Shown here piece by piece: positions 11,789-41,219 of a stretch of DNA of 64,000 nucleotides. The position numbers and the translations under genes are program-made. The notes beneath the pieces are model-generated. The model made no database searches, was not told the DNA's origin, and saw only the letters and a program-made list of their open reading frames with translations. Where the stretch lies: IMG/VR virus record IMGVR_UViG_3300021963_000057, positions 40,627-104,626 of that record; one strand, written 5' to 3'. The stretch's first letter is position 1, and the number at the start of each line of letters is the position of its first letter. This DNA comes from a virus.

Positions 11789-12378
11789 ATACAGAAGATA
11801 TTGTCTTATATAACACAGAAGAAACGATTAAGGTTGCACCGACAGCCGAAAAGGTTGAAACGTTTGACTTGGTACCGCCAGACCATCCAGCACTTTACAA
11901 AGTCCTACCAGAGTTTGATTTTGAAAATGCACCAATCAATCCAAATAGTTTTGCATCTACATTGGTGGAGACTTGTAGAAAACATCATGGTATTGGTCTA
12001 TCTGCAAATCAATGTGGTTTTGAATACCGTGTTTTTGTTATGGGTGCCGGTGAAGAATATGTGGCATATTTCAATCCAAAAATCATTTCATCAAGTGGCG
12101 AAAAACACATGGAAGAAGGATGCCTTTCATTTCCTTTCTTAAATCTCCACATTACCAGACCAGAAACTGTAGAGGTTGAATACCAGGATTTCACAGGTGA
12201 GAAACGTACCAAAACTTTTAATGGCATATCTGCAAGATGTTTTCTTCATGAGCTTGACCACATGAACGGGATAGTGTATACTAGTCGTGTAAAACCACTT
12301 GCGTTACAATTTGGTTTGAAAAAGTTGGATAAAATTAGACGCAAGTACTTTAACCCTAAGAAAACCAAAAGAACTTAA
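11785..12378 (+). CDS. def: Peptide deformylase
   Basis: 197-residue PDF, removing the formyl group from nascent proteins. All three motifs are present: GIGLSANQ (69-76), EGCLS with the metal-binding Cys (about 113) and HELDH (155-159). Cyanophages and other marine myoviruses carry similar enzymes, usually read as supporting synthesis of rapidly turned-over host or phage proteins. An extra N-terminal stretch of about 35 residues precedes the catalytic domain. Four-base overlap with gene 46, and the last base is shared with the next ATG. Confidence 0.95.
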   Translation: MNTEDIVLYNTEETIKVAPTAEKVETFDLVPPDHPALYKVLPEFDFENAPINPNSFASTLVETCRKHHGIGLSANQCGFEYRVFVMGAGEEYVAYFNPKIISSSGEKHMEEGCLSFPFLNLHITRPETVEVEYQDFTGEKRTKTFNGISARCFLHELDHMNGIVYTSRVKPLALQFGLKKLDKIRRKYFNPKKTKRT

Positions 12379-13643
12379 TGGCCACACCTATAGATTATGT
12401 TGATGCTCAGTGGGAAAAATGGCAGGTACTAAATGATCCTGAACGTTTCGAACACATTGACACTGAGCAATTGAAAGAGATATTGATTAAGGACCTTACG
12501 TATGCCTCACAAATGGATGTACGTGAGTATACCTTATATCAAAAGTGGTTAGAGGTGCATGAGAAATATCCAACCAGAACAATCAGTACACTCTTTGATG
12601 AAGAAGTGCAATTGGTAGATGTTACACAAAAGAAACTGGTTGAGAAAGTCAAAAAAAACTTTTGGATGCCAGAAGGTCCAGATGACTATGAAAAATTAAA
12701 GCCAAGATTAGTCTTATCTAACGGACCTTTGGCAGAAACATGGAATACAGTACGTACATTTTCTTCTACGATGAAGAATAACTCCAACATTGGCCGCAAT
12801 CTTTATTACACTGTGGTTGATGAAAACACCGACAAGTATCTTGGTGTTATCTGTATATCATCTGACTTCTTGGACTTGACTCCAAGAGATACCGCAATTG
12901 GTTGGCCACGTGATGTTAAGACACAACAAGGCATGATTAATCATACAGCAATTGGTTCTACAATCGTTCCACTACAACCACTTGGTTTCAATTATATGGG
13001 TGGTAAATTGTTGGCATTGTTGTGTCTTGCTGATACCGTACAGAATGATTGGAAAAGACAATATGGAGACGTTCTTGTTGGAGTTACAACTACTTCCCTT
13101 TATGGCAACACTAAGTCCAATGGTCTATCTCAGTATGATGGTCTTGAACATTGGAACAAAATGGGTTTCTCTAGTGGTTCGGTTGCTTTTGAACCGTCCA
13201 GAAAAACCAGAGCAATGATTTATGATTGGGTAAAAGAGAATCACACACGTAAATATTTTGAGTGGTGGGAAGCCAAGAATCAAAAAGGTTTGCCACTTAA
13301 ACGTGACCACAAAAATCGTACATTAAATTTTGCGTATGGTAAGTTGGGTATTCCAAAAGAACTTATCCGTACAGAGCATCAGAGAGGCATCTATTTCTCA
13401 CCTCTCTATAACAACACCAATGAATATCTTAGGAAAGAAATTGGTGATGAACAACTGGTCAAATCATTTGATACCAGTGAAGAAACCTTGACGCAAATTT
13501 GGAAAACCAAATATGCCAAAGGTCGTATATCAATGTTGAAGAAAAAGAATAATGTATCTTATGAATCATTATTTTATGATGACTTGATATACCTGTCTTG
13601 GGAAGAAACCAAGGCTAAGTATCTACCACAAGTTGGCAGATAA
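12378..13643 (+). CDS. DUF4338-like protein, paralogue of the 40113 gene
   Basis: 421 residues, no signal or membrane segment. The core stretch with PLQPLGFNYMGGKLLALLC, a following W-x-x-x-YG, and TTSLYG...LSQYDGL matches the same region of the 40113 protein (PAQPFGYNYLGGKLLAAIC ... TTSLYG ... SQYDGMK), so the two are paralogues. The pattern is remotely reminiscent of DUF4338 (the DruA family of Druantia systems), which has a similar L-A-x-x-x-L...W-x-x-x-YG...ETF arrangement. That link is my inference. Function unknown. It is the last gene of the uvsY-46 operon. Confidence 0.6.
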   Translation: MATPIDYVDAQWEKWQVLNDPERFEHIDTEQLKEILIKDLTYASQMDVREYTLYQKWLEVHEKYPTRTISTLFDEEVQLVDVTQKKLVEKVKKNFWMPEGPDDYEKLKPRLVLSNGPLAETWNTVRTFSSTMKNNSNIGRNLYYTVVDENTDKYLGVICISSDFLDLTPRDTAIGWPRDVKTQQGMINHTAIGSTIVPLQPLGFNYMGGKLLALLCLADTVQNDWKRQYGDVLVGVTTTSLYGNTKSNGLSQYDGLEHWNKMGFSSGSVAFEPSRKTRAMIYDWVKENHTRKYFEWWEAKNQKGLPLKRDHKNRTLNFAYGKLGIPKELIRTEHQRGIYFSPLYNNTNEYLRKEIGDEQLVKSFDTSEETLTQIWKTKYAKGRISMLKKKNNVSYESLFYDDLIYLSWEETKAKYLPQVGR

Positions 13644-23726: not shown

Positions 23727-23818
23727 GCCAGCGAGACTGGGTAGTCAGAGAGGTCTTATACACCTTTTAGCGCCAGATTAGCGTTCTTGAGTGAGTTCGA
23801 GTCTCACCGCTGGTACCA
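23727..23818 (+). tRNA. Class II tRNA with anticodon TAT (Ile or Leu-like)
   Basis: 92 bases. Acceptor GCCAGCG/CGCTGGT, good T arm, encoded ACCA and a five-base-pair variable arm (AGCGC/GCGTT). Anticodon loop reads CTTATAC, that is UAU, which would decode AUA. A long variable arm is foreign to tRNA-Ile, so identity is uncertain. Confidence 0.75.
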
Positions 23819-24867: not shown

Positions 24868-24930
24868 AGGATCGGTTCAGCAATAAACAAGCTAACTTTG
24901 GATGTCTAGCGACAAAAACGATCCTGTTGT
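24868..24930 (+). ncRNA. Structured element E4 (family A)
   Basis: Terminal stem AGGATCG (24868-24874) with CGATCCT (24919-24925), followed by GTTGT. CAGCAA lies just inside the 5' arm. The interior has a GCTAAC/GT(C)TAGC hairpin with seven-base loop TTTGGAT, which looks like an anticodon loop for Pro (UGG). The next gene is tRNA-Pro (TGG). No T arm. Confidence 0.55.
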
Positions 24931-24935
24931 ATTTT

Positions 24936-25009
24936 CTCGGTGTAGTGAAATGGTATCACCCGTGCTTTGGGAGCATGTAGCGCAAGTTCGATTCTTGCCA
25001 CCGAGACCA
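24936..25009 (+). tRNA. tRNA-Pro (TGG)
   Basis: Acceptor CTCGGTG/CACCGAG, anticodon loop TTTGGGA, encoded CCA. Confidence 0.92.
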
Positions 25010-25017
25010 GTATTTTT

Positions 25018-25092
25018 GGGCTGATGGTATAATTGGGAACACAGTGGCCTTGCAAGTCACAGTTGGGGGTTCGATTCCCCCTCGGTCCACCA
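25018..25092 (+). tRNA. tRNA-Ala (TGC)
   Basis: Anticodon loop CTTGCAA. The acceptor has the G3:U70 pair that specifies alanine. Encoded CCA. Confidence 0.94.
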
Positions 25093-25097
25093 AATTT

Positions 25098-25172
25098 GGT
25101 TCAGTAGCATAGTGGCAGTGCAGCATCTTCATACGGTGCCTTGTGTGAGTTCGATTCTCACCTGAACCACCA
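25098..25172 (+). tRNA. tRNA-Met (CAT), second copy
   Basis: Acceptor GGTTCAG/CTGAACC, anticodon loop TTCATAC, encoded CCA. It could be elongator Met, or Ile2 if the C is modified. Confidence 0.9.
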
Positions 25173-25178
25173 GATTAT

Positions 25179-25254
25179 GGGTCTTTAGCTCAGTGAACAG
25201 AGCTCTTGGCTACGAACCAAGAGGTCGGGGGTTTGAATCCCTCAAGACCCTCCA
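25179..25254 (+). tRNA. tRNA-Arg (ACG)
   Basis: Anticodon loop CTACGAA, acceptor GGGTCTT/AAGACCC, encoded CCA. The A34 would need host TadA to become inosine. Confidence 0.92.
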
Positions 25255-25260
25255 TGATTT

Positions 25261-25334
25261 TCCCGGATAGTTAAATGGCATAACAATCGGCTGATAACCG
25301 GTCATCGCAAGTTCGATTCTTGCTCTGGGAACCA
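25261..25334 (+). tRNA. tRNA-Ile (GAT)
   Basis: Anticodon loop CTGATAA, acceptor TCCCGGA/TCTGGGA, encoded CCA. Confidence 0.93.
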
Positions 25335-25339
25335 TTTTT

Positions 25340-25404
25340 AGGATAGTAACAGCAACTAAAATACTTCAAACTTGTAACTTGAAAAGTAAAATCTATCCTG
25401 TTGT
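25340..25404 (+). ncRNA. Structured element E5 (family A)
   Basis: Stem AGGATAG (25340-25346) with CTATCCT (25393-25399), then GTTGT. ACAGCAA lies inside the 5' arm. The inner hairpin ACTTCAA/TTG(A)AAGT carries a loop containing CTTGTAA, an anticodon-like sequence (UGU, Thr). Lies between tRNA-Ile and tRNA-Trp. Confidence 0.55.
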
Positions 25405-25409
25405 ATTAT

Positions 25410-25483
25410 ATCTCGATAGTGTAATGGCAGCATACCAGTCTCCAAAACTGTTGGTCGGGGTTCGAGTCCCTGTCGGGATGCCA
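25410..25483 (+). tRNA. tRNA-Trp (CCA)
   Basis: Anticodon loop CTCCAAA, acceptor ATCTCGA/TCGGGAT, discriminator G, encoded CCA. Confidence 0.92.
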
Positions 25484-25512
25484 GTGTTAGTAAAAAAAGA
25501 AAGGTGATTGAT

Positions 25513-26001
25513 ATGAAAAAGTTCGACATACAAGAAGTTAAGCAATTCCTTGCAAGTCAAGGACCAGATACGAAAGTATATTTGGGTGCTGACTCAGAAC
25601 GTATCCGTGTAAACGGTGTATGGTATGCAGACTATGCTTTGGCTGTCGTAGTTCATATTGATGGCCGCCATGGTTGTAAGATTTTTGGTTTCGTTCAACG
25701 TGAGTTGGACTATGACCACAAGAAAAGTAAACCTGCAATGCGGTTAATGACCGAAGTGTATAAGGTTTCAGAATTGTTCCAAGACTTGGCTGATGTATTA
25801 GAAGATTTCCATGTTGAAGTTCATTTGGACTTAAACAAAGATGACTTGTACGGAAGTTCATGTGTTGTACAACAAGCGATTGGTTATATCAAGGGTACAT
25901 GTAACATGACACCTATGGTTAAACCAGACGCACCAGCTGCAAGTTTCTGTGCTGACAGATTGAAAAGAATCTTGGCAGAACAAGAAGCTTTGCAGGTCTA
26001 A
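25513..26001 (+). CDS. RNase H-like fold protein (YkuK/DUF458-like)
   Basis: 162 residues. The first strand pair VYLGADSERI with conserved Asp, an HLDLNKDD segment and a C-terminal helix follow the pattern of the YkuK/DUF458 predicted RNase H-like nucleases found in bacteria and phages. ATG 25513 is preceded by AAGGTG. Lying inside a tRNA array, it may act on RNA, but that is inference from context. No membrane or signal segment. Confidence 0.7.
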   Translation: MKKFDIQEVKQFLASQGPDTKVYLGADSERIRVNGVWYADYALAVVVHIDGRHGCKIFGFVQRELDYDHKKSKPAMRLMTEVYKVSELFQDLADVLEDFHVEVHLDLNKDDLYGSSCVVQQAIGYIKGTCNMTPMVKPDAPAASFCADRLKRILAEQEALQV

Positions 26002-26049
26002 CAGACCCCCGTGAATAAACACGGTTAAAAATTCCAAAGTTTACTTTGG

Positions 26050-26124
26050 GGAGATATTAGTTTAGTGGCAAAACCACGGGTTGTGATTCCGTTATCATGA
26101 GTTCGATTCTCATATATCTCCCCA
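26050..26124 (+). tRNA. tRNA-His (GTG)
   Basis: G-1 paired with C73 (His identity), acceptor GAGATAT/ATATCTC, anticodon loop TTGTGAT, encoded CCA. Flanking sequence extends the acceptor helix by about 11 further pairs (TTTACTTTGGG with CCCAAAGTAAA). Confidence 0.93.
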
Positions 26125-26137
26125 AAGTAAATTTTAT

Positions 26138-26212
26138 GCCTCGTTAACTCAGCGGTAGAGTAACTCTTTTACACGGAGAAGGTCGGCAGTTCAATCCTGT
26201 CACGAGGTACCA
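26138..26212 (+). tRNA. tRNA-Val (TAC)
   Basis: Acceptor GCCTCGT/ACGAGGT, anticodon loop TTTACAC, encoded CCA. One mismatch at the outer end of the anticodon stem. Confidence 0.9.
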
Positions 26213-26215
26213 AGT

Positions 26216-26382
26216 TTTGTAAGTGTAGATGTTGAGAAAGTTTTTGTAGGCATACAAGAATGAGGATAGTGCTTTGCCGATGCCAAGTATCAACTATTAC
26301 TACGTACCTCTATACAGTCGGCCGCTTCAAAGAAAATACTGTTAAAATGGTGAGAAATAAGCGAGGTCTCATTACTTACAAA
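26216..26382 (+). ncRNA. Closed-stem region of unknown function
   Basis: 167 bases between tRNA-Val and tRNA-Phe closed by a perfect nine-base-pair stem (TTTGTAAGT 26216-26224 with ACTTACAAA 26374-26382). The interior has several inverted repeats (CAGT/ACTG, TGAG/CTCA, GATAGT/ACTAT). No open frame of note. Confidence 0.4.
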
Positions 26383-26390
26383 TTCATTAT

Positions 26391-26466
26391 GCTGCTTTAG
26401 CTGATGTGGTCATAGCAGGGGTCTGAAGAACCTCGGAAAGTAGTTCGATTCTACTAGGCAGCACCA
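26391..26466 (+). tRNA. tRNA-Phe (GAA)
   Basis: Acceptor GCTGCTT/AGGCAGC, anticodon loop CTGAAGA, encoded CCA. Confidence 0.92.
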
Positions 26467-26472
26467 AGTTTT

Positions 26473-26574
26473 AGGATAGGTTCAGCAAAAAATTCACATG
26501 CGAATGGTTCGCAATTTGCCTTTTAAGCAAACCTTGTGGGTTCAATTCCCACTGTAAAAAAACTATCCTGTTGT
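26473..26574 (+). ncRNA. Structured element E6 (family A) with tRNA-Lys-like interior
   Basis: Stem AGGATAG (26473-26479) with CTATCCT (26563-26569), then GTTGT; TTCAGCAA follows the 5' arm. Inside is a near-complete tRNA-like cloverleaf: short D-like arm (26499-26513), anticodon arm TTTGC-CTTTTAA-GCAAA (26515-26531, UUU), T arm GTGGG-TTCAATT-CCCAC (26536-26552) and an imperfect acceptor-like helix TTCACA/TGTAAA. There is no free CCA end, so it looks like a tRNA mimic. Confidence 0.65.
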
Positions 26575-26578
26575 ATAT

Positions 26579-26655
26579 ACCCAAGTGACGGAATTGGTAT
26601 ACGTACTTGTCTCAAACACAAGGTTATGTGGGCTCGAATCCCACCTTGGGTACCA
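26579..26655 (+). tRNA. tRNA-Leu (CAA) with short variable arm
   Basis: Acceptor ACCCAAG/CTTGGGT, Leu-like D arm (GACGGAATTGGTATACGT), anticodon loop CTCAAAC, encoded CCA. The variable region is only five bases, unlike normal class II tRNA-Leu. Confidence 0.87.
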
Positions 26656-26658
26656 TAT

Positions 26659-26733
26659 GGGTTGTAAGCTTAAGTGATGAAGCAACCGGCTCTTAACCGG
26701 AAGAACAGAGTTTGATTCTCTGACGACCCACCA
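26659..26733 (+). tRNA. tRNA-Lys (CTT)
   Basis: Anticodon loop CTCTTAA, acceptor GGGTTGT/ACGACCC, encoded CCA. Confidence 0.92.
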
Positions 26734-26738
26734 ATCAT

Positions 26739-26812
26739 GCTCTTATAGGTAAATGGCATACCACATCCATGGTAAGGATGTATTCTAAGTTCGATTCTTA
26801 GTAGGAGCACCA
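26739..26812 (+). tRNA. tRNA-Thr (GGT)
   Basis: Anticodon loop ATGGTAA, acceptor GCTCTTA/TAGGAGC, encoded CCA. Confidence 0.92.
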
Positions 26813-27009
26813 ACTTGTTTTAATGTTGTTAAGACAAACTCTTTTTCTTGTTGAATATATAATTCATCATCTATGAAAGATTTTTTCTCAGTAACATATG
26901 ATTCGATGAAATCAGATTCAATACAGTAATAAGCATGAGGCACATATTTTTGGTGTGCGAATAGTTTATAAAATATTTGTACTGTAGGTTTTTGTTCGTA
27001 AGGTATCAT
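26785..27009 (-). CDS. Possible minus-strand small protein inside the tRNA array
   Basis: 74-codon frame from ATG 27009 filling the 210-base gap between tRNA-Thr and tRNA-Leu (TAG) and ending antisense to tRNA-Thr. The predicted product has a natural composition (KLFAHQKYVPHAYYCIESDF...). AATAAATA, close to a late promoter octamer, lies just upstream on the minus strand. No family is recognised and the ribosome site is weak. Confidence 0.4.
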   Translation of the reverse strand: MIPYEQKPTVQIFYKLFAHQKYVPHAYYCIESDFIESYVTEKKSFIDDELYIQQEKEFVLTTLKQVGAPTKNRT

Positions 27010-27022
27010 ATGAGTATTTATT

Positions 27023-27099
27023 GCCCCGGTGACGGAATTGGTATACGTGTTGGTCTTAGAAGCCAAATTTTAGGAGTTCGAGTCTCCTCTGGGGCACCA
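27023..27099 (+). tRNA. tRNA-Leu (TAG) with short variable arm
   Basis: Acceptor GCCCCGG/CTGGGGC, Leu-type D arm identical to that of tRNA-Leu (CAA), anticodon loop CTTAGAA, encoded CCA. Variable region only about five bases. Confidence 0.87.
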
Positions 27100-27105
27100 A
27101 ACATT

Positions 27106-27180
27106 CCGGCGTTAGTATAATGGATAATACAGCGGTCTTCTACACCGTGAATGTGGGTTCGATTCCTGCACGCCGGACCA
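27106..27180 (+). tRNA. tRNA-Arg (TCT)
   Basis: Acceptor CCGGCGT/ACGCCGG, anticodon loop CTTCTAC, encoded CCA. Confidence 0.92.
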
Positions 27181-27198
27181 TTTTTTGAGGAGTTTAAT

Positions 27199-27774
27199 AT
27201 GCCATCAGTATTTCTTACAAGTGACACACACTTTGGTCACGCTGGTGTGTGTAGATTTCTCCGTGATGACGGTGTGACAAAGCTTAGGCCATGGGATAAT
27301 CCAGAAGAAATGGATGAAGAAATGGTGAAGCGTTGGAACGAAACAGTCGGGCCAAATGATAAAGTATATCATCTTGGTGATGTTGTTATCAACCGCAAAG
27401 CACTTAGCATTATGCATAGACTTAACGGTGATAAAGTTCTGATTCGTGGTAACCATGATATCTTCAAAGATGAGGATTATAGACAACACTTCCGTGAGCT
27501 ACGTGCTTATCATGTAATGAACGGAATGATTCTGTCTCATATTCCAATTCATACAGAAAGTCTTGGTCGTTTTGGTGTCAACATTCATGGACATCTTCAT
27601 GCTAACCGTGTGACTATGGGAAATGGATATAGAAGTGTAATCGACACCAGATACCATTGTGTTTGTGTTGAACAAACAGATTTCAGACCGATTCTTTTTG
27701 AGGATGTTATGAAACGAATCAAAGAAGAAGGTGGTGAGGTCGGTTTCCGTAATGGAAACGGACCTGCCATGTGA
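27199..27774 (+). CDS. Calcineurin-like metallophosphoesterase
   Basis: 191 residues with the full metal-site series: SDTHFGH (8-14), LGDVV, RGNHD and IHGHLH. Similar small phosphoesterases occur in many phages, and substrates range from nucleotides to RNA ends. ATG 27199 follows GAGGAG. The stop is directly followed by tRNA-Leu (TAA), so the gene is embedded in the tRNA transcript. A role in RNA end processing is possible but unproven. Confidence 0.88.
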   Translation: MPSVFLTSDTHFGHAGVCRFLRDDGVTKLRPWDNPEEMDEEMVKRWNETVGPNDKVYHLGDVVINRKALSIMHRLNGDKVLIRGNHDIFKDEDYRQHFRELRAYHVMNGMILSHIPIHTESLGRFGVNIHGHLHANRVTMGNGYRSVIDTRYHCVCVEQTDFRPILFEDVMKRIKEEGGEVGFRNGNGPAM

Positions 27775-27775
27775 T

Positions 27776-27859
27776 GCGAGTATGGGGGAATTGGTAGACC
27801 CAGCAGACTTAAAATCTGCCGCCTTGTGCGTACCGGTTCGACTCCGGTTACTCGTACCA
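27776..27859 (+). tRNA. tRNA-Leu (TAA)
   Basis: Normal class II tRNA-Leu with variable arm CGCCTTGTGCG, anticodon loop CTTAAAA, acceptor GCGAGTA/TACTCGT, encoded CCA. Confidence 0.93.
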
Positions 27860-27879
27860 AATATTTTTTAAAAATATGC

Positions 27880-27908
27880 TTGCCAAGAGATTGAAAAGCA
27901 TATATAAT
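27880..27908 (+). promoter_or_regulatory. Third tRNA-array promoter
   Basis: TTGCCA (27880-27885), 17-base spacer, TATAAT (27903-27908). Start of transcription falls a few bases before tRNA-Gly (GCC). Confidence 0.75.
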
Positions 27909-27919
27909 ACACACATGAT

Positions 27920-27994
27920 GCGGGCGTGGTGCTAGTGGTAACACGTAACCTTGCCAAGGTCAAGTTGCGGGTTCGATTCCCGCCGCCCGCTCCA
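27920..27994 (+). tRNA. tRNA-Gly (GCC)
   Basis: Acceptor GCGGGCG/CGCCCGC, anticodon loop TTGCCAA, discriminator T, encoded CCA. Confidence 0.94.
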
Positions 27995-28000
27995 ATTTTC

Positions 28001-28074
28001 GCCCTACTAGTATAATGGCATTACACTGGTTTTGTAATCCTGTGATGGCAGTTCGATTCTGTCGTGGGGCACCA
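28001..28074 (+). tRNA. tRNA-Thr (TGT)
   Basis: Acceptor GCCCTAC/GTGGGGC, anticodon loop TTTGTAA, encoded CCA. The anticodon stem has T-T mismatches. Confidence 0.87.
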
Positions 28075-28103
28075 AACATTGTGGTATATTTACAACATAC
28101 CGC

Positions 28104-28132
28104 TTGACTACAACAAATTTTTGTGTTATACT
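28104..28132 (+). promoter_or_regulatory. Promoter of the Ro-like unit
   Basis: TTGACT (28104-28109), 17-base spacer, TATACT (28127-28132). TACAAC lies exactly seven bases before the -35, as at the two boxA promoters. The spacer contains CTACAACAAATTTTT, the reverse complement of the last part of the boxA leaders. Confidence 0.75.
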
Positions 28133-28161
28133 ACACAGTATTGAAAGATTGAAAAGGTTTT

Positions 28162-28318
28162 AGGTTAGTTACAGCATTATTCATTAATACTGGACTGTTA
28201 GGTAACTATGGTAAATGCTGGAGGTTTCGACCTTTGAAGGTGTTTATTGAAATAGTCCTAACAAAGGTGAGTTTCGATTTTCTCACTGTAAACAAAAAGT
28301 AGAAAGCTAACCTGTTGT
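28162..28318 (+). ncRNA. Structured element E7 (family A), first RNA of the Ro-like unit
   Basis: Stem AGGTTAG (28162-28168) with CTAACCT (28307-28313), then GTTGT. ACAGCA follows the 5' arm. The interior is larger than in other copies: a CAGCATT/AATGCTG helix, a TGTTAGG/CCTAACA helix, and a T-arm-like hairpin GTGAG-TTTCGAT...-CTCAC. No reading frame. It is transcribed ahead of the DUF2828 protein. Confidence 0.6.
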
Positions 28319-28322
28319 TTTT

Positions 28323-28443
28323 AGAATACTCACAGCAAACAATTTTTCCGCTTATAACGGAGAGGTTACAGGTTCGAATCCTGTTTTACGCTTCATGCGT
28401 GAATAGCACAATTGGTAGTGCGCTAAAAAATGTATTCTGTTGT
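28323..28443 (+). ncRNA. Structured element E8 (family A) holding a permuted tRNA-Ile (TAT)
   Basis: Outer stem AGAATAC (28323-28329) with GTATTCT (28432-28438), then GTTGT. Inside, in this order: anticodon arm TTCCG-CTTATAA-CGGAG (28346-28362), variable AGGTT, T arm ACAGG-TTCGAAT-CCTGT (28368-28384), acceptor 3' strand TTTACGC (28385-28391), linker TTCAT, acceptor 5' strand GCGTGAA (28397-28403), TA and D arm GCAC-AATTGGTA-GTGC (28406-28421). All four helices are complete, but the 3' half precedes the 5' half. It is either a circularly permuted tRNA gene or a Y-RNA-like tRNA mimic. Confidence 0.8.
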
Positions 28444-28463
28444 TTTTTTATGAGGAGTAAGTT

Positions 28464-29891
28464 ATGTCAACTTTTGTAGATGCCGTTGTTAATCAAGATG
28501 CCCGTACCGCAAACGGTATGAAGGCTCGTAAGTCCACTGCTAATGCAGTTGTAGATTTGTTCTACAATGCAGGTGCTTCACGTGGTAAAAACATTGTGCC
28601 TGCTTTTGCAGCTGCAATGGCAGAAAACCGTGAACTCGCTTTGCGTGTTGCTGCTTGGTTGCGTGATGCTCGTGGTGGTGCCGGTGAACGTGAATCGTTC
28701 CGTACTATCTTGCGTTATTTGGAAAAGAATGACGTAGAAGCCGCAAAAGCATTGTTGACAAAGGTTCCTGAATTGGGCCGTTGGGACGACATTTTTGTAT
28801 TTGATTCTGACGTTATGAAGTCAGCAGCATTCACTATGTTGGGTGATGCGCTTCGTGCGAAGAATGGATTAGCTGCAAAGTGGACTCCTCGCCAAGGTAA
28901 ACTAGCGGCTGAAATCCGTCAGTTCTTTGGTATGTCCCCAAAGTTTTACCGTAAGTCTTTGGTTGAAATGACCAAAGTAGTTGAAACTCAAATGTGTGCG
29001 AAAGATTGGGATTCCATTAATTTCTCACACGTACCTTCCGTAGCGGCATCCCGTTACAAGAAGGCTTTTAATCGTAACACTCCAACTTATGCAGCTTATG
29101 TTGCTTCGTTGGTTAAGGGTGATAACCCTGAAGTTAAGGTTAATGCAGGTGCTGTGTTCCCATACGATGTGCTGAAAGGCCGTATCGGTGGTTACATTAA
29201 ATTCGACAAGACCGAATTGGACTTGGTGCAAAAACAATGGGAGGCTTTGCCTAACTTTGTTGGTGACGCAAACATTCTACCTTTGGTGGATGTTTCAGGT
29301 TCAATGACCTGCGCTGCAGGTGGTTATGGTTCCAAATCAGGTCTAACCTGTTTGGAAGTAGCAGTCTCTTTGGGACTATACTTGGCAGATAAGAATGAAG
29401 GCAAGTTCAAGGACACCTTCCTAACTTTCTCTGACAAACCAGAATTGTTGCACTTGAAAGGTAACATTAACCAAAAGATTGACCAAATGGTTAAATCTGA
29501 TTGGGGTATGTCTACTAACCTACACAAGGCGTTTGAAAGAATCCTTGATGTAGCAGTAAAAGGTGGCGTGCCACAAGAAGAAATGCCAGCGATGGTATTG
29601 ATTCTGTCAGACATGCAATTTAACGCTTGCGTTAGACATGATGACTCTGCTATGCAGATGATTGCACGTAAGTACAAAGAAGCAGGATATGATTTGCCAA
29701 AAGTTGTATTCTGGAACTTGAATGCCGCATACGGCAACGCTCCAGTAAAGTTCGATACTTCTGGTACTGCATTGGTATCTGGTTTCTCACCAGCAGTCGT
29801 AAAACCACTGTTGGCTGGTGACCTAGAAACCTTTACACCAGAATCTGTGATGCTTAAAACCATCATGGATGACCGTTACAAAGTATTGTGA
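28464..29891 (+). CDS. DUF2828 protein, TROVE-VWA (Ro60-like)
   Basis: 475 residues. Residues 20-240 carry the DUF2828 hallmarks: LRDARGGAGER (66-76), GRWDD (105-109), AKW at 138-140, a FYRKSL...VVETQMCAKDW stretch and VPSVAASRY. This helical-repeat region is related to the TROVE domain of Ro60, a ring-shaped RNA-binding protein. The C-terminal half is a von Willebrand A domain with the MIDAS motif DVSGS (276-280). In bacteria, Ro (Rsr) binds Y RNAs, some of which mimic tRNA. Here two structured RNAs, one with a whole tRNA fold, precede the gene on the same transcript. GAGGAG ribosome site; terminator follows. Confidence 0.82.
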   Translation: MSTFVDAVVNQDARTANGMKARKSTANAVVDLFYNAGASRGKNIVPAFAAAMAENRELALRVAAWLRDARGGAGERESFRTILRYLEKNDVEAAKALLTKVPELGRWDDIFVFDSDVMKSAAFTMLGDALRAKNGLAAKWTPRQGKLAAEIRQFFGMSPKFYRKSLVEMTKVVETQMCAKDWDSINFSHVPSVAASRYKKAFNRNTPTYAAYVASLVKGDNPEVKVNAGAVFPYDVLKGRIGGYIKFDKTELDLVQKQWEALPNFVGDANILPLVDVSGSMTCAAGGYGSKSGLTCLEVAVSLGLYLADKNEGKFKDTFLTFSDKPELLHLKGNINQKIDQMVKSDWGMSTNLHKAFERILDVAVKGGVPQEEMPAMVLILSDMQFNACVRHDDSAMQMIARKYKEAGYDLPKVVFWNLNAAYGNAPVKFDTSGTALVSGFSPAVVKPLLAGDLETFTPESVMLKTIMDDRYKVL

Positions 29892-29898
29892 TGGTATG

Positions 29899-29923
29899 GG
29901 GACTCGAAAGAGTCCTCATTTTA
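29899..29923 (+). terminator. Terminator of the Ro-like unit
   Basis: GGGGACTC-GAAA-GAGTCCTC hairpin followed by ATTTT, eight bases after the stop codon. Confidence 0.8.
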
Positions 29924-29998
29924 AAACACACTGCCGAAGTTGGTTCGGTTAGGCAGGCTGCATCCAACAAGCCATGTCCGTGAGTGTGTTTTAAAATG
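29919..29998 (+). ncRNA. Structured element E9 (80 bases, family B)
   Basis: Perfect 15-base-pair terminal stem (29919-29933 with 29984-29998). Interior hairpin CCGAA-GTTGG-TTCGG and a second hairpin GGCT/AGCC whose loop contains CCAAC, so the two loops can kiss over five pairs. Same length and same AAAACACACTGC/AGTGTGTTTT ends as E1 at 23451. Confidence 0.6.
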
Positions 29999-30096: not shown

Positions 30097-30166
30097 GCGG
30101 CAAACGTAATAACATCACAGGAATGCCCTTCTTGTGACGGCTGTGGAAATCAGTCTTGCCGCTCCA
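30097..30166 (+). ncRNA. tRNA-like structure without D arm
   Basis: Seven-base-pair acceptor GCGGCAA/TTGCCGC followed by T and CCA as in a tRNA. A nine-base-pair hairpin with TGCCC loop replaces D and anticodon arms. A T-arm-like GGCTG-TGGAAAT-CAGTC precedes the acceptor 3' strand. Lies between tRNA-Gly and the groES-like gene; CCA is 14 bases before that start. Confidence 0.55.
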
Positions 30167-38768: not shown

Positions 38769-40116
38769 AGAATACTTACGTAAGGTACTCCCGTTCATCA
38801 AAGAGGATTACTTCCCGGATAGGACCGACAGAGCAATCTTCATTGAGATTTCCAAGTTCACAGAATCTTACAATTCTCCACCAACGATTGAAGCACTTGA
38901 ATTGGCCGTCAAAGAGAGGCGAAATCTCACAGATGATGAAGTGGAGAAGTGCGAGACTAGTCTACAAGAGATTGTTAAATCTAAAGAAGAAATCTCCAAG
39001 ATTGACTGGCTGGTTGATAAAACCGAAAAATTCTGCCAAGAGAAGGCCATATACAATGCTGTATTGGGGTCTATTTCCATCCTTGACGGAAAAGACAAGA
39101 CCCAAGATAAAGGGTCTATACCTAAATTACTTTCCGATGCGTTAGCAATTTCTTTTGATAGTTCGGTCGGTCACGATTACTTGGAAAACTCCGATGAACG
39201 ATATGAATTCTACCACAGACATGAAGAAAGAATTCCTTTTGACCTAGAATTCTTCAACAAGATTACAAAAGGTGGTTTGCCTAACAAAACACTTAACATT
39301 GCTCTTGCGGGTACTGGTGTTGGTAAATCATTGTTCATGTGTCACGTGGCCGCAGGTGCTATGGTACAAGGCAAGAATGTTCTTTATATCACCATGGAAA
39401 TGAGTGAAGAAAAGATTGCTGAACGTATTGATGCCAACTTATTGAACGTCACAGTAGATGACCTTGTGAATTTACCGAAAGATATGTATGATAAAAAGAT
39501 TGAAAGACTTCGTGAAAAGACTGTTGGAAAACTTATCATTAAAGAATATCCAACAGCGTCTGCAAGCAGCACACACTTTCGGACCTTACTCAATGAGCTC
39601 AATCTTAAAAAGTCTTTTGTTCCTGATATTATTTTTATTGATTATCTCAATATTTGTTGCTCATCGAGGATCAAGGCCGGAGCTAACATCAACTCCTACA
39701 CCTACGTCAAGTCCATTGCAGAAGAGCTGCGAGGTCTTGCCGTTGAGTTCGGAGTACCTATTGTTTCTGCGACACAAACAACTAGAGGTGGATTTACTTC
39801 TTCCGATCCCGGACTCGAAGACACAAGTGAGTCTTTTGGTTTGCCCGCTACAGCTGACTTGATGTTTGCTCTTATTTCTTCCGAAGAACTAGAAGAAATG
39901 GGACAGATTATGGTGAAACAGTTGAAGAATCGTTATAATGATCCAACATATTTCAAACGTTTTACACTAGGCATAGATAGAGCAAAGATGAGACTATTTG
40001 ATGTTGAACAATCGGGTCAAGATGGCATTACAGATTCTGGCCAAGATAAACCACTCAACACATTTGGTAACAGAGAGAAACCACAGAAGAAATCATTTGA
40101 TGGATTTAAAGTATGA
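38725..40116 (+). CDS. 41: Replicative DNA helicase gp41
   Basis: 463-residue DnaB-family helicase (T4: 475). Walker A AGTGVGKS, Walker B FIDYLN and the C-terminal R-finger stretch LKNRYND are present. ATG 38725 is preferred over the adjacent TTG because AGGAAG lies eight bases before it. Pairs with the gp61 primase at 57640. Confidence 0.95.
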   Translation: MRLEQTILKNLIYNEEYLRKVLPFIKEDYFPDRTDRAIFIEISKFTESYNSPPTIEALELAVKERRNLTDDEVEKCETSLQEIVKSKEEISKIDWLVDKTEKFCQEKAIYNAVLGSISILDGKDKTQDKGSIPKLLSDALAISFDSSVGHDYLENSDERYEFYHRHEERIPFDLEFFNKITKGGLPNKTLNIALAGTGVGKSLFMCHVAAGAMVQGKNVLYITMEMSEEKIAERIDANLLNVTVDDLVNLPKDMYDKKIERLREKTVGKLIIKEYPTASASSTHFRTLLNELNLKKSFVPDIIFIDYLNICCSSRIKAGANINSYTYVKSIAEELRGLAVEFGVPIVSATQTTRGGFTSSDPGLEDTSESFGLPATADLMFALISSEELEEMGQIMVKQLKNRYNDPTYFKRFTLGIDRAKMRLFDVEQSGQDGITDSGQDKPLNTFGNREKPQKKSFDGFKV

Positions 40117-41219
40117 AATTAGAATTTAATGATGCAGTACATTGTGCCAAAGTATTTGAAGATTACTTTGGTAACTTTGACCGTATTGATGAATATATGC
40201 GTGACCAGAAGTTGAATTCTCTGGCTGAACTTCCAGCCAATCCATTGTTTCCAATTGAAGATGAGTTATTTCAAGACTTCACAATGAAACCGGAAGATAT
40301 GGATTTTGAAGTTGTTGAGATTGATACCGAAACATGGACCAATCTATTGAACATCACTTCATCACATGTGAATATTCCACCAGTTGGTCGTAATGTCAAA
40401 GTGGCAGTACGTGAGAAGAACACAGGAAAGTACGTAGGTTTCATCCGTCTTGGTTCACCTGTAATCAACTGTAAACCTCGTAATGAATTGCTTGGACAAG
40501 TGTTTACACAAAAACCTGAGTGGGGTAAACGATTCAACAACTCTGCAATGATGGGTTTTGTTATCGTACCTGCACAACCATTTGGTTATAATTATCTTGG
40601 TGGTAAACTTCTGGCTGCAATCTGTACGTCACATGAAGTACGTGAGATTGTGAATAAGAAGTATGGTATGAATTTATGTTTGTTTGAGACTACCAGTTTG
40701 TATGGTAGTTCTAAGACTGTATCTCAATATGATGGTATGAAACCATATATCAGATATAAAGGTCTGACAGATTCTGATTTTCTGCCGATGATGCACGGTA
40801 AACCTTATTCAGACCTACGTGATTTCGTGCAGGATAAAGTCGGACCTTTGGTTGAAGATGATGCTTCTAGTAAGAAACTAAAAATCTCCATGAAGATTAT
40901 ATCACTTACTAAAGCAGCACTTAAAGGTACACCTGAAGGGGATACATTCTTAGCAACGATTGAGAAGGCCAAGGGGTTGACAGAACAAAAAAGATATTAC
41001 ATTAGTGATTATGGTTTCAGTAACATGGTCGACTATGTAAATTGTAAGACGGACGTGCTTATTCCTGGTGAAAATTATGAGAAACACAATCTGGTAAACT
41101 TGATTGAATGGTGGAGGAAAAAGGCTTGTAATCGGTATGAAACATTGTATAATGAAAACCGTTTGAAGAATGAACTTGAAATTTGGACTTCCGGAAAGGA
41201 GATCCAAATTATAAGATAA
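40113..41219 (+). CDS. DUF4338-like protein, paralogue of the 12378 gene
   Basis: 368 residues. PAQPFGYNYLGGKLLAAIC, KKYGMN, TTSLYG and SQYDGMKP align with the 12378 protein in order and spacing, while the ends differ. Fused neither to helicase nor nuclease. It overlaps gene 41 by four bases and ends near a late promoter. Same remote resemblance to DUF4338. Confidence 0.6.
   Translation: MKLEFNDAVHCAKVFEDYFGNFDRIDEYMRDQKLNSLAELPANPLFPIEDELFQDFTMKPEDMDFEVVEIDTETWTNLLNITSSHVNIPPVGRNVKVAVREKNTGKYVGFIRLGSPVINCKPRNELLGQVFTQKPEWGKRFNNSAMMGFVIVPAQPFGYNYLGGKLLAAICTSHEVREIVNKKYGMNLCLFETTSLYGSSKTVSQYDGMKPYIRYKGLTDSDFLPMMHGKPYSDLRDFVQDKVGPLVEDDASSKKLKISMKIISLTKAALKGTPEGDTFLATIEKAKGLTEQKRYYISDYGFSNMVDYVNCKTDVLIPGENYEKHNLVNLIEWWRKKACNRYETLYNENRLKNELEIWTSGKEIQIIR

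Follow-up and report, generated by a model that had tools for sequence, protein, structure and literature searches.

What purpose is served by a Ro-like ring protein and a group of RNAs resembling parts of tRNA when they are encoded side by side in a virus? The stretch analyzed here, referred to as the window, comprises 64,000 nucleotides (positions 40,627 to 104,626) of the 104,626-base IMG/VR virus record IMGVR_UViG_3300021963_000057. The virus is T4-like, since the record encodes Gp23, a capsid scaffold protein, UvsX, UvsW, a gp44-like clamp loader, and DNA polymerase B, and the Ro-like gene sits within a cluster of ~30 tRNA genes. The unit in question comprises a promoter, two closed-stem RNAs (RNA1 and RNA2), the gene of the predicted ring protein, and a terminator-like hairpin. 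We interpret it with moderate confidence as a phage Ro/Y-RNA-type ribonucleoprotein (RNP), in which a terminal stem common to the RNAs, termed here the clamp, would dock on the ring, and the exchangeable tRNA pieces enclosed by it would act as baits.

The protein (475 residues, 28464..29891, + strand) belongs to the family phrog_850 (E 3e-140), members of which are encoded at <60% identity in 672 phage records. Two Pfam models, and no others, match above cut-off, DUF2828 (E 2e-20) and the VWA-like DUF7788 (E 4e-47). The metal ion-dependent adhesion site (MIDAS) sequence DVSGS corresponds to residues 276-280, coded at 29289-29303, and D276, S278, S280, T351, and D383 are invariant across 70 homologues, so that the MIDAS residues of a VWA domain are present. 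A preliminary description of this DNA, made from the letters alone, had proposed a protein of this length with DUF2828 hallmarks and DVSGS, which the Pfam matches and the invariant residues bear out, and had predicted a Ro-like ring, for which an AlphaFold check was run. A single-sequence AlphaFold2 (AF2) prediction gave a predicted local distance difference test (pLDDT) score of 40 and was unusable; run with the 70 homologues, AF2 yielded a model with a pLDDT of 90.1 and a predicted template modelling score (pTM) of 0.89, comprising a TROVE-like helical ring and a VWA domain. The best PDB match disclosed by Foldseek is the Ro60 autoantigen (1yvr; E 9e-9, TM 0.59/0.55), followed by the TROVE structure 9kop (E 2e-8), the remaining matches being mostly VWA domains. 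Given these matches, the modelled product is assigned by fold as a Ro60-like TROVE ring plus a VWA domain, even though sequence searches do not lead to TROVE.

Upstream of this gene, RNA1 (28162..28313, + strand; closing strands AGGTTAGTTACAGCA and AAAGCTAACCT(GTTG)) and RNA2 (28323..28438, + strand) are found exactly where the preliminary description placed them, with exact closing stems and folds more stable than those of dinucleotide shuffles (z -3.45 and -3.41, respectively). RNA2 encloses a permuted tRNA mimic, with the arms in the order clamp 5' strand, anticodon arm (28346-28362, loop CUUAUAA), T arm (28368-28384), acceptor hairpin (28385-28403), D arm (28406-28421), and clamp 3' strand. 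Across 20 homologues and 28 pairs, 95.4% of the cells are paired compared with 30-49% in slid controls, and double-change cells number 148 vs 46.8 when shuffled, with double changes in all five helices. The Rfam YrlA model scores 35.7 bits on RNA2 (E 2.7e-6 in a 391-base search), below its gathering score of 69; at gathering threshold, Rfam detects neither RNA1 and RNA2 nor the minimal modules described below. RNA2 represents a YrlA-type mimic of a circularly permuted tRNA. Its acceptor, a 7-base-pair stem, is sealed by a UUCAU loop and has no CCA, and hence RNA2 cannot supply translation; a working permuted tRNA gene in this phage was considered and dropped on these grounds. The earlier suggestion that both RNAs mimic tRNA thus holds for RNA2, whereas RNA1 displays only a T-arm-like hairpin (GTGAGTTTCGATTTTCTCAC, ~28267-28286) and no whole mimic. 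In the alignment of 21 RNA1 homologues, the clamp and the hairpin pairs covary, seven pairs showing double changes, and the relatives keep the clamp, the T-arm-resembling hairpin GTGAGTTTCGATTTCTCAC, and AAAAAGTAGAAAAC, the remainder being variable or missing.

The two RNAs share the ends 5' ttttAGRNTANNTNCAGCAA and 3' AAAANTANYCTgttg, from which a simple rule emerges, namely a covarying stem of 6-7 base pairs, its sequence changing while its pairing is retained, with YNGCA placed exactly 10 nucleotides after the stem start (AGNNNN-NNNN-YNGCA). Five convincing clamps are found in the 104.6-kb record, all within window positions 24868-28438, compared with 0.33 in shuffles, adding three RNAs on the + strand to the two already described: (i) a 58-nucleotide RNA between tRNA genes (24868..24925; strict clamp AGGATCGGTTCAGCAA...CGATCCTGTTG, fold z -2.1, matched by model R1); (ii) a 60-nucleotide RNA (25340..25399; strict clamp AGGATAGTAACAGCAA...CTATCCTGTTG, matched by model R1), containing a short hairpin with the anticodon-loop-like CUUGUAA, the fold energy of which alone is not above chance (z -0.96); and (iii) a 97-nucleotide RNA (26473..26569; strict clamp, fold z -2.6) enclosing a normal-order tRNA-like element with the Lys-like anticodon loop CUUUUAA, a degenerate acceptor, and no CCA, in which Rfam recognizes tRNA at 26492-26560 (36.3 bits). 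The notion of RNAs dedicated to the protein is supported by their conservation beside homologous genes, where they were sought and found, with covariation in the RNA1 and RNA2 alignments, but a set of two was too few, the set comprising five.

Related loci reveal how general the arrangement is. Arrays upstream of homologous genes in IMG/VR contigs comprise RNAs with the same ends and different inserts, and over ~180 related loci the full clamp rule gives 525 matches on the gene strand vs 40 on the other. Two checks are not circular: in 117 kb of sequence 5' of the gene, the gene strand has 322 copies of CAGCAA and 10 of its complement, and the seven bases beginning 10 nucleotides before CAGCA[AT] find their complement downstream in 80% of instances, the frequency peaking clearly at -10/-11 over a background of 4-17% inside or beyond the motif and ~43% further upstream. 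Phage records were scanned in pieces. A total of 412 distinct modules were gathered, with up to eight beside one gene, and the clamp-enclosed classes include permuted tRNA, normal-order tRNA, T-arm-like hairpin, and isolated anticodon stem-loop. Anticodon-type hairpins, defined by a 7-nucleotide loop with U in position 2 and a purine in position 6, are found in 90 of the 166 minimal modules (mean 6.7 and maximum 17 in 200 shuffles), frequently with the loops CUUGUAA, CUUGAAA, CUUCUAA, or CUUUUAA, and recur in Mycobacterium, Aeromonas, and Vibrio phages. Searching 74 loci with the RNA2 covariance model gives 25 matches at E <= 1e-8, including a Felixounavirus and the Sinorhizobium phage phiM12, although 10 of these are the model's own input and two span neighbouring clamp-bearing tRNA genes and not a single permuted module. 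Most of the 40 permuted acceptors that were parsed keep 7 base pairs; 27 are sealed by loops of <=6 nucleotides and six encode CCA in the loop.

Clamps adjoin the gene in seven of 10 loci from bacterial assemblies, which are probably phage or prophage contigs, and in Listeria phage CKA15 they lie at record positions 25290-25552, between genes 056 and 055, directly upstream of the homologue. The strongly transcribed non-coding RNA loci 059-061 of CKA15 (PMC12282133) were considered as clamp RNAs and are not of this type; the CKA15 region reported as most transcribed (L099, 3518-4073) contains a long structured RNA, likewise not of the clamp type. T4 and T5 do not have the Ro gene, and their tRNA clusters contain no clamps, barring one chance match on the other strand in T5; neither T4 rnaC/rnaD nor the T5 stable RNAs, checked as candidates, are clamps. 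Some clamp modules are large, ~217-240 nucleotides (L018 2572-2788, L073 2628-2845, and L080 2617-2855), and that of L080, the sole locus tested, has no Rfam match.

The clamp also occurs within tRNA genes. Genes of ~112-121 nucleotides carrying a ~40-nucleotide insert are found in Cronobacter S13, Citrobacter Ci1, Synechococcus BUCT-ZZ01, Aeromonas Ahp1 and APT65, and Vibrio KVP40; those of the insert-bearing genes that Rfam lists reach 41-57 bits as tRNA, and that of Ahp1 is annotated as a pseudo-tRNA. The insert is a clamp turned inside out, comprising the 3' strand, a short loop (e.g., GUAA or GACA), the 5' strand, and then YNGCA, so that RNA2 and these genes represent one type of object, RNA2 being opened at the clamp rather than at the acceptor. 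In BUCT-ZZ01, Ahp1, and KVP40 179304 the insert lies 5' of the anticodon arm and the CUGUUAA loop is kept, and in KVP40 181101 and APT65 966 it takes the place of the anticodon loop. An encoded CCA ends most of the clamp-bearing tRNA genes, but not KVP40 181101, both APT65 genes, or Ahp1. In BUCT-ZZ01, a tmRNA and a tRNA-Pyl(CTA) are also called near the Ro locus, at L208 16861-17279.

Across very different phages, the Ro gene travels with clamp RNAs, in array and in strand. What the clamp encloses can be exchanged and frequently consists of tRNA pieces, and we infer, with good support, that the clamp serves as the ring's docking site. In the proposed mechanism, clamp RNAs would dock on the Ro ring via their common terminal stem, and the docked tRNA pieces would serve as baits that draw tRNA-recognizing proteins to the ring or keep them occupied, such proteins being host or phage nucleases and enzymes of modification or decay. 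This bait role is putative and less firmly indicated than the docking; by holding such proteins, the phage may control the fate of tRNA-like RNA during infection. Several observations weigh against the interpretation as a whole. The protein finds no TROVE match in Pfam and no Ro chain among PDB sequences in phmmer and profile searches. The clamp does not contain GNCGAAN(0-1)G, the Ro-binding motif of bacterial Y RNAs, and docking by the same surface is therefore an assumption. Large and other modules bear no obvious resemblance to tRNA, and the module counts are not independent, being inflated by many relatives. Finally, vB_OspM_OC has the gene and no clamp was found in it, and Munch has the gene and only two model matches, both far from it.

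Extending the bait interpretation, Ro phages might run a general 'tRNA-part display', comprising a universal clamp, tRNA-copied modules, and clamp-grafted tRNA genes, that misleads or captures host enzymes attacking or processing tRNA, a proposal to be taken as tentative. The same RNAs could alternatively shield the phage, the anticodon loops and tRNA mimics, stabilized by Ro, acting as sacrificial substrates or inhibitors of host anticodon nucleases and sparing the ~30 phage tRNAs. The commonest minimal module, an isolated anticodon stem-loop with U33 and A37 in tRNA-rich phages, fits this function, for which a precedent exists in the competitive-inhibitor role proposed for the tRNA-like domain of YrlA (PMC7790460); nevertheless, the anticodon nuclease studied there did not cut YrlA, and T-arm-like, large, and other modules are left unexplained, which makes a shield unlikely. 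We also doubt that the RNP is a Deinococcus-like machine for RNA decay or quality control, in which Y RNAs would link the ring to PNPase or a different nuclease and direct the decay of structured RNA. Such a function is established for Rsr and Y RNAs, as cited in PMC7790460, and the ring fold matches, but decay alone explains neither the diversity of modules nor the clamp arms in CCA-bearing tRNA genes.

Two further explanations place the RNAs within tRNA metabolism. The permuted and clamp-bearing tRNA genes could be precursors of working tRNAs, the clamp serving in splicing or assembly and Ro acting as a chaperone of assembly, as might be suggested by the CCA in the acceptor loop of 6/40 permuted modules, by the clamp-arm tRNA genes that often keep CCA and their tRNA-like scores, and by an RNA ligase gene near the Ro locus in LAh_6, Munch, and CKA15. 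This is improbable given that most acceptors, including that of RNA2, are sealed without CCA and that a clamp arm replaces the anticodon loop in several genes. The location of clamp RNAs within tRNA clusters, with U-rich borders in common, would also be expected if the closing stems were processing or stability elements of tRNA operons unrelated to the Ro protein; with the T4 and T5 clusters devoid of both Ro and clamps, and the densest clamps directly adjoining the Ro gene across many phages, we consider this highly improbable.

The RNP interpretation relates the locus to systems already described. The preliminary view that no such phage system had been described is not supported: DUF2828 genes of mycobacteriophages are annotated 'Ro-like RNA binding', PMC7824862 mentions, for jumbo phages, a ROT/TROVE protein and its tRNA-like partner, and Y RNAs reported in mycobacteriophages are cited in PMC12282133. 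The protein belongs to the same family as these phage Ro-like proteins (phrog_850, DUF2828), beside which Y RNAs have been suggested (PMC12282133 and the paper cited there); the CKA15_055 homologue was detected in purified particles (20 peptides), and nearby Y RNAs were proposed by the authors (PMC12282133). Since phage Ro/Y-RNA pairs are already known, the locus does not represent a new class of system. YrlA itself is a circularly permuted tRNA (PDB 6CU1, PMC11472068).

As in Salmonella rsr-yrlBA and Deinococcus Rsr-YrlA, a Ro ring protein is encoded beside non-coding RNAs, RNA2 preserving the arm order and matching Rfam YrlA below the gathering score. Unlike bacterial Rsr-YrlA, the phage protein is of the DUF2828 type, unmatched by Pfam TROVE; the phage RNAs carry a strict putative docking motif, YNGCA at its fixed distance of 10 nucleotides from the stem start; and the sets comprise up to eight RNAs with exchangeable modules, the clamp extending into tRNA genes. 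Permuted tRNA genes of algae and archaea encode the 3' half before the 5' half, and RNA2-type modules likewise put the 3' tRNA half first; in contrast, the ends of the phage modules meet in a common clamp, and in most of them a short loop lacking CCA seals the acceptor. Four elements appear new, namely the rule for docking, the sets of modules, the modules with an isolated anticodon stem-loop, and the tRNA chimaeras, whereas Ro and Y RNAs of phages as such were known before; none of the four was found in the literature searched, which did not include the main 2014 publication on Y RNAs of bacteria and phages.

In this way a gene carried in 672 phage records, and only loosely annotated, becomes a definable RNP, the RNAs of which are located in laboratory phages, by a simple sequence rule in Vibrio KVP40 and Listeria CKA15 and by the covariance model in a Felixounavirus. 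The modules link tRNA, permuted tRNA, and Y RNA in a natural series and offer a direct means of testing why Y RNAs resemble tRNA; the bait step, if true, would represent a new kind of counter-defence or tRNA control.

The unit is flanked by expression signals of differing quality. The sigma-70-like promoter (28104..28132, + strand; TTGACT-17 nucleotides-TATACT, extended -10 with TG, 10/12 matches) is present as first described and recurs in 14 related loci, directly 5' of the clamp RNA that comes first, although a promoter scan of the region gives a count near chance (5 found vs 3.8 expected). The proposed terminator (29898..29923, + strand) is a real hairpin, GGGGACTC-GAAA-GAGTCCTC followed by ATTTT, the shape of which relatives retain with altered sequence; as a terminator it is weak, its 8 base pairs (~29898-29917) preceding a run of only four U, and the terminator scan left the hairpin at 29898-29917 unflagged. 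Just 3' of it, at 29921-29995, lies a second closed-stem element, ATTTTAAAACACACT...AGTGTGTTTTAAAAT (z -3.6), and relatives retain its stem with a different insert or none.

Elsewhere in the window, a tRNA-shaped element without a D arm, GCGGCAA...TTGCCGCTCCA (30097-30165, z -3.3), is not called as tRNA, and ARAGORN reports a 92-nucleotide tRNA-Ile(TAT) with an odd anticodon position at 23727-23818, unlisted by Rfam at gathering score. Two DruA-domain proteins (Pfam PF14236) are encoded at 12378-13643 (E 2e-20) and 40113-41219 (E 4e-9), a domain that also occurs in the Druantia defence system.
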